In this document: positions 25,174-30,371 of the stretch, piece after piece | How the letters are laid out: every line of letters starts with the position of its first letter | How positions within the stretch are numbered: the stretch's first letter is position 1 | NCBI GenBank assembly: GCA_021809925.1 | Contig: JAJZJV010000006.1 | Span: forward strand, 1-33,519 | Reading direction: 5' to 3' | Length of the DNA: 33,519 nt | DNA from: Microcaldota archaeon | GTDB lineage: Archaea > Micrarchaeota > Micrarchaeia > Micrarchaeales > CABMGC01 | Made by a program: the position numbers and the translations under genes | The notes under the pieces: model-generated | Told to the model about the DNA's origin: nothing | Databases searched by the model: none | Seen by the model: the letters and a program-made list of their open reading frames with translations, nothing else

Positions 25174-26235
25174 ATGGTGCCATCAAAAAGCGGACACAAT
25201 ATGCAATCACAAGACGGTGGTGCGCATGAAAAAATACATTCATATTACAGCGATTTTGTTTTAGAGGAGATTAATTCATTTATTCTATCGACAGTTAATT
25301 TACTTGGGGTGATTGTTGAGAGGGAGATAACTCAACCAAGAATCTCATTTGTGGGTTTGGCAGATAATTTGGAAGACGATGCCAAATATGATCCGGAAAG
25401 CAAAACCATAATAATAAATCTCAATGCATTATTCAGAAATGAAGAAGACAAAAGTGTCTTCAATCCCTACCTTAAGATAGCTATAGCCCATGAACTAACG
25501 CATTACCTCACTGATGTTTTACACGAAAAGGCATTTGAATGGAGGAATATTGAGAGAAATGGCGCAGGACCTGAGACTTTATTATTTTACATAAGCGATG
25601 AGGGTTCTCGCTGCGAGTTCATTGCTGGATTATTATCTGGAAGCATAAATACAAGGAAGGGTTTGCACAGATTGATTGATGATATCGGCGAGTTGGGATA
25701 CAATGAGCAGGCAGGCGAGATTTTTATAGATATCTTCAGAATGCTGAAGAAAGGCGGAGATGTCAATAAAGCTCTTTATGATTACATAAGATTAAGAGAG
25801 AATGCTCTTGGAGATCACCTTTACATATATGGCATGATTGTCTCTTCAATTATGCTTATTGGCAATGGTCTTGAGAGTGATCCTGAAGCAGCTGAAAGAA
25901 CGACAATACATGATCTTCTAGTAACTCCTCTTGAGGACATAATATCCAAAGCATCCGGAATAGTTATTGATCGCAGAGTAGATAATGCATATGGAACAAT
26001 TTACTACAAGGTACTAAAAGAGCTAGAAGAAGAGCAAAAGATGCGAGAGAATGAGCAGCAAAGAGAAAGAGAGGAGAGAATAAGGCGAATGAAAGCACTC
26101 CAAGATGTTATAAAGACTAAGAGGTTGAAGGGCACTTATGACATAACAGCCGCAACAAGCATGCTTAAAAATGGTGCCTTAAAAGGGGCTTATAGGAGCA
26201 GTAAGGGTAATAAAAAAGAGAAGCTCAAGAGATAG
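25174..26235 (+). CDS. Zincin-like metalloprotease candidate
   Basis: 'IAIAHELTHYLTDV' HExxH motif, downstream 'DEGSRCEFIAGLLSG', C-terminal charged coiled-coil. Confidence 0.6.
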   Translation: MVPSKSGHNMQSQDGGAHEKIHSYYSDFVLEEINSFILSTVNLLGVIVEREITQPRISFVGLADNLEDDAKYDPESKTIIINLNALFRNEEDKSVFNPYLKIAIAHELTHYLTDVLHEKAFEWRNIERNGAGPETLLFYISDEGSRCEFIAGLLSGSINTRKGLHRLIDDIGELGYNEQAGEIFIDIFRMLKKGGDVNKALYDYIRLRENALGDHLYIYGMIVSSIMLIGNGLESDPEAAERTTIHDLLVTPLEDIISKASGIVIDRRVDNAYGTIYYKVLKELEEEQKMRENEQQREREERIRRMKALQDVIKTKRLKGTYDITAATSMLKNGALKGAYRSSKGNKKEKLKR

Positions 26236-26256: not shown

Positions 26257-27117
26257 TCACTTCGTGCCCTTTTTTATCATCTCGACAACATTCTCCATCT
26301 CTTTTCTGCTTTTATTTATATCCTCTATGTTGTCTATTGAATACCATGGCGTTGAGAAAACATATCCAAAGAGCTTCCCCGCGCTGGCCAATGCCGGAAA
26401 GAGACTCTCCTCAAGCATTATTCTGCCAGAGGAACCGGAGAGAAGACCAAAGACTGATGGATCGAAAAGATAGATGCCAGCATTGACAAGCCTTGCTTCC
26501 CTTCCCTGATCTGGCTTTCTGGTAAAGTTGCTTATCTTTAAGCCCTCTAGCCTTGTAACACCCATGCCATATCTTGATATTGATGTTGTAAGAGCAACGG
26601 TTGCTAATGCTCTAGTCTCGATATGCTGCAGGTACATTCCAGCCATATCCAGCCTGAATATATGATCCCCATTTAATGCAAAAAAAGGCGATGTCCCTAT
26701 CAGCCCACTGACAAGGCTTAATGCACCTTCGGTACCTCTCTGTGCATCCTCTCTTATATAATTAAGCCTTACTCCCAATGCAGACCCATCTCCGAAGTGA
26801 TCTACTAAGTCATCACTTCCCTTCCCTATTGTGACGAGCACCTCAGATATGCCATTTCTCTTGAGTTCTCCCACCACATACTCCATTATTGGCCTTCCCT
26901 TGATTGAGATCATTGGAGGGTAGACTACTCGATTTTCTATCACTATGCCTCTCCCACCAGCAAATATAACCGCTTTCTTTGGCATTGCATGCGTCATGGC
27001 AGAATCAAGTAGATGCTCTATCGCATGCGATCTATTTCTTATCTTAACTCCATCTATCCCTGCATCGATTCTTTTTAGCAACTCCTCGTCAAGGGTTATT
27101 GTGAGTCTCTTCTTCAT
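26257..27117 (-). CDS. Ribbon-helix-helix (CopG/MetJ-type) domain fused to sugar-phosphate nucleotidyltransferase domain
   Basis: N-terminus 'KKRLTITLDEELLKRIDAGIDGVKIRNRSHAIEHLLDSAM' (RHH), then 'KAVIFAGGRG...', 'GRPIMEYVVGELKRNGISEVLV', 'GTEGALSLV', 'FFALNGDHIFRLD', 'VNAGIYLFDPSVF'. Confidence 0.85.
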   Translation of the reverse strand: MKKRLTITLDEELLKRIDAGIDGVKIRNRSHAIEHLLDSAMTHAMPKKAVIFAGGRGIVIENRVVYPPMISIKGRPIMEYVVGELKRNGISEVLVTIGKGSDDLVDHFGDGSALGVRLNYIREDAQRGTEGALSLVSGLIGTSPFFALNGDHIFRLDMAGMYLQHIETRALATVALTTSISRYGMGVTRLEGLKISNFTRKPDQGREARLVNAGIYLFDPSVFGLLSGSSGRIMLEESLFPALASAGKLFGYVFSTPWYSIDNIEDINKSRKEMENVVEMIKKGTK

Positions 27118-27182
27118 TTTATCAGTTCTGTGTACTTACAGTAAATAGTTACAACGATAAATCTAAATATCATTATGAAAAC

Positions 27183-27222
27183 TATGATATAGTATGATAA
27201 AGTATGATATAATAAGATATTA
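27183..27222. promoter_or_regulatory. Tandem 10-bp-period direct repeats, candidate RHH operator
   Basis: TATGATATAG TATGATAAAG TATGATATAA TAAGATATTA; an inverted ATATCAT copy lies at 27167-27173. Confidence 0.65.
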
Positions 27223-27232
27223 AGGTTTTTCT

Positions 27233-28129
27233 ATGAACGCATCCGGAACAAAAACCCTTGGAAGAAACAAAGCGTTATGCGAAGCATTACAATCACAATT
27301 GCGCAATGAAGATATGGCATTTGATAATAGGCCGACCATTCTGACCCCAGAAAAATGTCCGGGAAGGTATGCTGGAGAAGTGGTAAGTATCCCACCTGGG
27401 TTTTTTCGCATCAGAGCAATGGGCGGGATAAAAACATTCTGCTCTACTGTCCTTCCAAATACCTCCATGATAGCGTTTTCCCAACAATCTATAGATGTTG
27501 TGATTAAGCAACACGACAGTGGAGAGAATGTATCCTTCAACGGAATTAATGGAGTAATAGTGCCTCAGAAAACATCGTGCCAGATAAATAATGTCGGAGA
27601 GCAGCCTCTGTTTACTGTCTATGGTGCCTTGGATGGGTCGTTCGTTCGAAATCCAATTGGATTTAATCTCAATGCTGTGAAAGAGTATATAAATAAGTAT
27701 GGCACATCAAAGATTATGGTACCTAATAGACCGTATGGGGAACGCATCGGCGTCGTCAATGGTGGCCTTTTTGGTGAGGGTGCAGATGGAAAAAAGGAGA
27801 TAGTGTTGGGTCCGCATACCTATGACTTCTCTGCAGGAAACCATCTTTCTCCACAATCAATGCATGTACATTGTCAACTGCACGAAATATTCGTAACATT
27901 CTCTGGCATGAGGCTCTTCTATCCTTATAAGGGGGAGATTTTCTTCTTAGAGGCCATGAAAGGGGAAGCAGTGATAGTCCCTCCTGGCTTAGCTCATCTC
28001 ACAATCATGGACGGAGAGGAACCTACATTCGTATTTAAAGCATCTTTAAACGGAAGCGTAGCAAATGATAAGCGCGTATTGCTCTCTGATGAACATGTTA
28101 AAGGATTATCTGAATTACTAAGGCAATAG
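27233..28129 (+). CDS. Cupin-fold (bicupin-like) protein
   Basis: 'SMHVHCQLHEIFVTFSGMRLFYPYKGEIFFLEAMKGEAVIVPPGLAHLTI' cupin motifs; N-terminal half also cupin-like. Confidence 0.7.
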   Translation: MNASGTKTLGRNKALCEALQSQLRNEDMAFDNRPTILTPEKCPGRYAGEVVSIPPGFFRIRAMGGIKTFCSTVLPNTSMIAFSQQSIDVVIKQHDSGENVSFNGINGVIVPQKTSCQINNVGEQPLFTVYGALDGSFVRNPIGFNLNAVKEYINKYGTSKIMVPNRPYGERIGVVNGGLFGEGADGKKEIVLGPHTYDFSAGNHLSPQSMHVHCQLHEIFVTFSGMRLFYPYKGEIFFLEAMKGEAVIVPPGLAHLTIMDGEEPTFVFKASLNGSVANDKRVLLSDEHVKGLSELLRQ

Positions 28130-28136
28130 TGTTTAG

Positions 28137-28670
28137 ATGAAGAAAATAGATGATGTCGGATCTGGGTACTCAATCTGGATCATGCCTGAGGCAGGAGAAG
28201 GAGAAAGGTATGCAGAGATTATACGCTTGCTCTCCTCTACCTACTCAACCCCATTCTTTGAACCCCACGTTACGCTGCTCGGCGGACTGTCTGGTAGTGA
28301 AGATTCCTTAATTAAAGGGATATCTGATATTGCATCCTCTATACACTCGTTTACGACGCAGTTCGATAAGATTGGTTATCTGGAAGAGTATTTTAGATCG
28401 CTCTTTGTACTCTTAAAGAGAGATGCCGAATTAGAATATATATGGAAGACTGCATCTGCAAAGTTTCATCTCCGTCCCGATAGATATATGCCCCACATGA
28501 GTCTTATTTATGGATTCATTCCAGAAGAAGAAAAGCAAGAAATTATAAAAAAGATTATGGTAAATGACATCGGAAATGGGTTTCTGGCAAAAAAGCTTGC
28601 GCTTTATTCTACGGAAGGACCTGTGGAAAGATGGCAGAAGATTTGTAGTTTTGATCTGTCGCGAGTATAA
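28137..28670 (+). CDS. 2H phosphoesterase (cyclic phosphodiesterase/LigT-like)
   Basis: Two HxT/S motifs: 'PHVTLLGGL' and 'PHMSLIYGF'. Confidence 0.82.
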   Translation: MKKIDDVGSGYSIWIMPEAGEGERYAEIIRLLSSTYSTPFFEPHVTLLGGLSGSEDSLIKGISDIASSIHSFTTQFDKIGYLEEYFRSLFVLLKRDAELEYIWKTASAKFHLRPDRYMPHMSLIYGFIPEEEKQEIIKKIMVNDIGNGFLAKKLALYSTEGPVERWQKICSFDLSRV

Positions 28671-29516: not shown

Positions 29517-30371
29517 ATGCAAAAAAAACAAGATCCAGTGGTTACTGATAAAATGAAGAAATCAGTATCAGCTTTATTCGATAGTGCAAGGAAGCCAAGT
29601 GAACAGAAAGGTTACTTGCAGAGCGTACTGCGCCCAGCTTCTTATCTGGCGCTCTCTGCAATGATTGGCTTAGGGAGTGCTGCATGTGCCAAAACCACAG
29701 CTAATGCTGTGCAGGGAACCAAAGAACCGGTCATTGCTGGATACTCAATCAAAGCAACTAAGATCTCAAAAGGAGGCGCAGCAATGCATTTTAAGCTTCC
29801 CAAGACAACAGGTGCTGAGGCAGAAGTGAATCTTGAAGGTGAAGGCTTCTCTTTAGTTGCTGGAGTAACTGTCATAAATAGGAGTCATCTAAAAGGGCCT
29901 GAGGCCGTGCCTGTATTTTTTGATATACAAAACCCAAGCAAGAGCAGCCCCGAAGTATCTTTGGGGGGCACAGATCCCAGATATTCTACAAACCCTAGGA
30001 CAACATCTTACTCTTCTGAGATCGTATCTTTGGGAAATGGGACATTCATACTTTCTGTAATGGCCTACAACGCAAAAGGTTCACAACTCTTCATCGACCA
30101 GAAGCCGCTCTCCTTACAAGCCCCATTTTCTAATGTAACTGGCAGCTGCAATACTGGAATAGTAGTTGGAAAAGGCACAGCTGCAGAGATAAATGTGAGC
30201 AGATGCATGTTTCAGTTATCAATATCAATTGGAGGTAATGAGCAGTGGTCTGCAGTCTTTGCTACCAATTCAGCAGAACCTTTTGTTTATAAAGGACAGC
30301 AAACCCAAAGCAGCGTTGTCTTGGGACCAAGAAATCCAGAAAGTGGTGGCTTTATAGTAAAATACAGATAA
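29517..30371 (+). CDS. Hypothetical membrane-anchored or lipoprotein-like secreted protein
   Basis: Hydrophobic 'YLALSAMIGLGSAACAKTT' lipobox-like segment then a Ser/Thr/Gly-rich extracytoplasmic region. Confidence 0.65.
   Translation: MQKKQDPVVTDKMKKSVSALFDSARKPSEQKGYLQSVLRPASYLALSAMIGLGSAACAKTTANAVQGTKEPVIAGYSIKATKISKGGAAMHFKLPKTTGAEAEVNLEGEGFSLVAGVTVINRSHLKGPEAVPVFFDIQNPSKSSPEVSLGGTDPRYSTNPRTTSYSSEIVSLGNGTFILSVMAYNAKGSQLFIDQKPLSLQAPFSNVTGSCNTGIVVGKGTAAEINVSRCMFQLSISIGGNEQWSAVFATNSAEPFVYKGQQTQSSVVLGPRNPESGGFIVKYR

Follow-up and report, generated by a model that had tools for sequence, protein, structure and literature searches.

Which protein reads the short tandem repeats that lie between two divergently transcribed genes of a small archaeal genome, and what would its binding do to these genes? 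The repeats are located in a stretch of 33,519 nucleotides from a Microcaldota archaeon, which is referred to here as the window, and a preliminary description made from the sequence had proposed that they form the operator array of an RHH protein.

The divergent locus and its repeats

With 0.9 Mb in 48 contigs the assembly is small, and the window encodes ribosomal proteins S3Ae and S15 and a ValRS, all of the archaeal types. A reading of the region as a bacterial promoter was rejected on these types, by which the genome is archaeal, and the sigma-70-like matches in the region reflect A/T richness. The intergenic region of 115 bp (27118-27232) separates the minus-strand gene of a 286-aa protein, the RHH-NTase (26257-27117), from the divergent plus-strand gene of a 298-aa bicupin (27233..28129), the putative regulated gene. 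A cyclic phosphodiesterase/2'-5' RNA ligase-like protein (28137..28670, plus strand; PF07823, PF13563) starts 7 bp downstream of the bicupin, both genes are probably co-transcribed, and a homolog of the phosphodiesterase-like gene adjoins the bicupin in the relative G073. The C-terminal cupin of the bicupin matches archaeal cupin-type phosphoglucose isomerases (profile, 2.4e-5), and its residues H211, H213, E218 and H255 are invariant. The assignment rests on this profile match because Foldseek with the bicupin model returned only generic bicupins of the oxalate decarboxylase type, with poor superposition. The window furthermore encodes, next to the RHH-NTase gene, a 353-aa protein with no Pfam match (25174-26235) that carries the zinc-metallopeptidase-like motif AHELTHYL, and a 284-aa protein (29517-30371) with a possible lipoprotein-like segment (SAMIGLGSAACAKTT).

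As stated in the preliminary description, three near-identical decamers and a degenerate one follow each other at an exact 10-bp period (27183-27222, plus strand), and 10 bp intervene between the end of the array and the bicupin ATG at 27233. Decamer 1, TATGATATAG (27183..27192), is a putative operator half-site that is found in register in the array-clade relatives. Decamer 2, TATGATAAAG (27193..27202), and decamer 3, TATGATATAA (27203..27212), constitute the core, TATGA being strictly kept in the latter, and decamer 4, TAAGATATTA (27213..27222), is degenerate. At the decamer junctions GTATGA is formed twice (27192-27197 and 27202-27207). The array is followed by AGGT (27223..27226, plus strand), which may represent a weak Shine-Dalgarno-like sequence 6 nt before the ATG. 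The inverted ATATCAT that had been noted upstream is present (27167..27173, minus strand), but an operator role for it is unsupported: it is off the 10-bp register, lies outside the conserved array, overlaps an A/T-rich TATA-like stretch and is probably no half-site.

As a control for self-similarity, the 115-bp intergenic region was dinucleotide-shuffled 3000 times. The best three decamer copies score 28/30 (shuffles: mean 21.8, maximum 26) and the best four 36/40 (mean 26.6, maximum 32), and either value was reached in 0/3000 shuffles. A search of the entire 0.91-Mb genome found the exact double decamer TATGATAWARTATGATAWAR nowhere but in the array, and two further matches outside it have two mismatches each. 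The array, occurring once in this genome, is no general promoter element. Beyond the array, TATGA-N5-TATGA sites of the same genome fall mostly within predicted ORFs or at their edges, and two of them, L119 (C13:5082) and L116 (C4:108223), are apparently intergenic. L119 (C13:5082-5099) is a lone pair, TATGAAAGAGTATGAAAA, that precedes a 166-aa ORF by approximately 275 bp, and is a weak candidate for a second site in this genome. Other functions of the repeats were considered and dismissed: shuffles fold just as well as the transcribed array (z=0.38), which speaks against a role at the RNA level, and no neighbours indicative of plasmid partition or CRISPR were found near the array.

Conservation in relatives and co-occurrence with the RHH-NTase

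Phylogenetic footprinting, which had been suggested as a check, placed the array beside the orthologous RHH gene in all ten genomes with the divergent arrangement (G000, G026, G025, G033, G018, G012, G027, G064, G080 and G078), spanning 8-9 genera. Upstream of these orthologs the repeats are conserved and the flanks diverge, which is the reverse of conserved flanks around lost repeats. Same-strand TATGA spacings in the ten upstream regions are almost exclusively 10, 20 or 30 bp (15, 11 and 8 times, respectively; expected 0.03-0.05 each). In unsupervised 8-mer counts AAAGTATG, AAGTATGA and TATGATAA came out on top, each present in 9/10 upstream regions, compared to at most six for any 8-mer in 60 shuffles, and GTATGA was found in 10/10. 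For example, G026 has six tandem copies (TATGATAAAT TAAGATAAAG TATGATATTA TATGATAATA TATGACTTAG TATGATTTAT), and in G027 TATGATGAAA comes before TATGATAAAG-TATGATAAAT. In an alignment of 18 promoters on decamer 2, the most conserved, decamers 2 and 3 contain 14.9 and 10.5 bits, figures that are inflated by anchoring on the core, versus approximately 2-5 bits per ten columns outside of it; decamer 4 (2.5 bits) shows weak positional conservation. In several RHH-positive genomes, those of genus g4, the RHH gene itself is not accompanied by an array.

At a threshold of E<=1e-80 the full RHH-NTase was detected in 26/302 genomes of the phylum, solely in this order and there within two families, besides two partial copies; a single-protein scan of GTDB contigs yielded only a 24% nucleotidyltransferase match. 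To delineate the regulon, 165 genomes belonging to the order were searched for sequence patterns. The exact core TATGATAAAGTATGA is present in 11 of these, 10 of which encode the RHH-NTase (Fisher p=4e-8), and the co-occurrence at the genus level is 8/8 (p=4e-5), with both p values being optimistic because the tested genomes are related. Matches in RHH-negative genomes fall within or across coding sequence, and the exact site inside a coding sequence of G008 is probably due to chance. No array was found at the bicupin of the RHH-negative G024 (94% complete).

At loci other than that of the RHH gene, the core was found in promoters of PGI/PMI-type bifunctional isomerases (PF10432; G030 and G071), of intact nucleotidyltransferases (G004 and G073, and with one mismatch G074) and of a ROK sugar kinase in G119 (TATGATGACA TATGACAAAG TATGATGATA), the latter being identified by eye from its N-terminus. 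The site in G073 is flanked by a bicupin on one side and by a nucleotidyltransferase-isomerase pair on the other. An intact nucleotidyltransferase-cupin fusion is encoded divergently from the RHH-NTase in G037, G046 and G049. The RHH-NTase was not found in G023 (83% complete) or in G073 (62% complete), both of which carry sites. The bicupin paralogues L041 and L043 of G023 have the same two-copy TATGATAAAATATGAGTGTG box directly before the start codon.

In the relatives, a TTTATATA/CTTAAATA-like TATA box precedes the core decamers by approximately 22-32 bp, at some remote targets by approximately 10 bp, so that the array covers the stretch from TATA box to transcription start. The putative TATA box of the bicupin promoter in the window is CTAAATAT (27163..27170, plus strand), the position of which matches the boxes of the relatives; by analogy, bicupin transcription would start inside the array and the transcript would have a short leader. 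With the TATA position upstream of the array, leaderless transcription of the bicupin, as proposed earlier, is not favoured. The array covers the bicupin promoter and is 66 bp away from the start of the RHH gene, and the autoregulatory role that had been ascribed to it is unsupported at this locus. For the family autoregulation is plausible, since five genomes of other clades have a 10-bp-spaced pair in the RHH gene's own leader, either direct (TATGATACGG TGTGA) or inverted (TATGA-N5-TCATA); these pairs support a predicted autoregulation in those clades (5/16 leaders versus 0.03 expected, three of the five genomes being close relatives and TGTGA having been admitted after inspection). In three RHH-NTases, L019, L020 and L021, R-I-S-(L/I)-T takes the place of the strand R-L-T-I-T, and the leader motif is shifted (TATGAWAAAGTAATAC), possibly reflecting co-variation of recognition strand and operator.

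Domain architecture of the RHH-NTase

The minus-strand protein starts with MKKRLTITLDEELLKRID..., an RHH domain that comprises residues 1-45 (MKKRLTITLD...; 26983..27117). The excised residues 1-46 score 22.5 bits with Pfam RHH_1 (cut-off 20.5), the nearest named relatives of the domain are NikR N-terminal models (7e-7, NCBIfam TIGR02793), and its PDB matches are E. coli NikR (1q5v/2hzv) and CopG. The full protein scores 25.9 bits with TIGR02793 and thereby stays below the NikR full-length cut-off of 175. The NikR-type C-terminal ACT nickel-binding domain is absent; instead, residues 47-270 (26308..26979, minus strand) match NTP_transferase PF00483 (1.1e-23) and represent a degenerate sugar-1-phosphate nucleotidyltransferase domain that may act as ligand sensor. 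The AlphaFold monomer model has a mean pLDDT of 81, and the pLDDT of 35-58 in its RHH part (residues 1-40) is expected because this domain folds as an intertwined dimer. Foldseek with the model returned GDP-mannose pyrophosphorylases, MurU, RmlA and many other nucleotidyltransferases, and the match to 8x7s (E 4e-19, query-normalised TM 0.72) indicates that the nucleotidyltransferase fold is kept.

All 16 aligned orthologs have lost the GxGTRL signature and carry another residue in place of the W-x-D-(I/V)-G aspartate (W-Y-S-I-D or similar), and the RHH-NTases of the cupin-linked clade additionally lost the lysine of P-K-P. In these genomes, three canonical intact paralogues kept both GxGTRL and W-F/Y-D-I-G, and the remaining intact nucleotidyltransferase paralogues there retain the GxGTRL signature. 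As both catalytic motifs are lost in all aligned orthologs, we read the domain as a predicted pseudoenzyme.

Operator reading, alternatives and related systems

The best explanation, to which we assign a probability of about 0.78, is that the repeats are the tandem operator of the divergently encoded RHH-NTase and that this protein represses the sugar genes. The RHH operator array envisaged in the preliminary description is strongly supported by the conserved repeats, by sites that track the RHH gene and by the combination of a NikR-like domain with a NikR-like half-site. Each decamer would offer one (G)TATGATA half-site to one RHH dimer, bound in the major groove, and neighbouring dimers, being one turn apart, would lie side by side on one helix face and bind cooperatively. 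The array would overlap the TATA-to-start region of the bicupin-phosphodiesterase unit, and its occupancy should therefore block TBP, TFB or RNA polymerase and repress the unit. The C-terminal domain, devoid of the catalytic motifs, would act as sensor of a sugar nucleotide or sugar phosphate, so that the expression of sugar-activation genes would follow the level of this ligand. Taken by themselves, binding of the RHH-NTase to these repeats is highly probable and repression upon binding is likely, while sensing of a sugar nucleotide by the nucleotidyltransferase-like domain has an even chance.

The RHH-NTase could also bind the array and activate the bicupin promoter or act dually. The direction of regulation is unreadable from sequence, and TATA box and start in the window are predictions; however, in the relatives the decamers lie downstream of the TATA box or overlap it, toward the start codon, which is the usual position for repression in archaea, and activation is thus unlikely. 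That the repeats belong to another transcription factor, which evolved together with the sugar genes, the RHH-NTase being a mere neighbour, would account for the sites persisting in G023 and G073. Yet both of these genomes are incomplete, exact sites track the presence of the RHH-NTase over 165 genomes, RHH leaders carry sites even in clades without the cupin gene, and RHH domain and motif are both NikR-like, which renders a different factor quite improbable.

It is very improbable that the repeats are core promoter elements, i.e., overlapping TATA-like boxes, possibly leaderless, with no dedicated binding protein. They are A/T-rich and the third decamer precedes the ATG by approximately 27 bp, the position expected for the TATA box of a leaderless promoter, but the motif is rare genome-wide, has an invariant G at its centre and recurs strictly every 10 bp, and in the relatives a distinct TATA box is present in addition to it. 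Slippage does generate short tandem repeats, and A/T-rich DNA could contain such an array by chance; against this stand the shuffle control and the footprinting, which refutes it: in eight genera or more, and also at unlinked promoters, the repeats have been retained between diverging flanks. The probability of this origin is negligible.

The operator reading can be extended to a new archaeal transcription factor family, in which a retired nucleotidyltransferase serves as GMPPA-like sugar-nucleotide sensor and is joined to a NikR-like RHH domain. This family would be confined to one order of small-genome archaea, read the decamers in both orientations and control the hexose-activation pathway (kinase, isomerases, nucleotidyltransferase). 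The joint reading is tentative and falls slightly short of even odds. No regulator-operator pair of this domain make-up was found in the family libraries and the literature searched. For reduced archaeal genomes, the analysis yields a concrete candidate operator together with the regulator matched to it and a predicted regulon, and the sensor is predicted to descend from an enzyme of the very pathway that it would monitor. It further suggests that NikR-like half-site recognition was kept despite a wholly different sensor domain and half-site spacing, and it points to a possible way in which sugar activation is sensed and controlled in minimal archaea.

Among the known systems, E. coli NikR provides the best match of the RHH domain, with the strand R-x-T-I-T-L-D and the half-site GTATGA common to both. 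The NikR operator is GTATGA-N16-TCATAC (PMC7055735), an arrangement not present in the window array: the NikR half-sites are inverted and 16 bp apart, whereas those of the decamers are direct and 10 bp apart. Furthermore, NikR senses nickel via an ACT-type domain, whereas the sensor domain of the RHH-NTase is nucleotidyltransferase-like. For Omega-type RHH proteins it was shown that one dimer binds per short repeat, direct or inverted, over promoters, with weak affinity to one repeat and tight binding only to two or more (PMC9499535). The Omega repressor/RHH ParB of pSM19035 (WATCACW heptads) is similar in its tandem, near-palindromic, promoter-overlapping repeats in either orientation, but these are contiguous 7-bp repeats acting in plasmid partition, while the window array has a 10-bp unit and is found at sugar-metabolism genes. 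At promoter repeats, adjacent RelB dimers occupy the same face of the DNA (PMC2812701), and RelB and CopG are both RHH repressors on promoter repeats, CopG sharing the N-terminal MKKRLTITL with the RHH-NTase; in contrast to the latter, they have no enzyme-like sensor domain and act in toxin-antitoxin or copy-number control. GMPPA is a eukaryotic protein with no DNA-binding domain that acts on the enzyme by protein contact. This non-catalytic GDP-mannose pyrophosphorylase paralogue binds GDP-mannose and regulates the pathway (PMC11228364), and as a nucleotidyltransferase paralogue without catalysis it constitutes a precedent for the proposed sugar-nucleotide sensing by the RHH-NTase.
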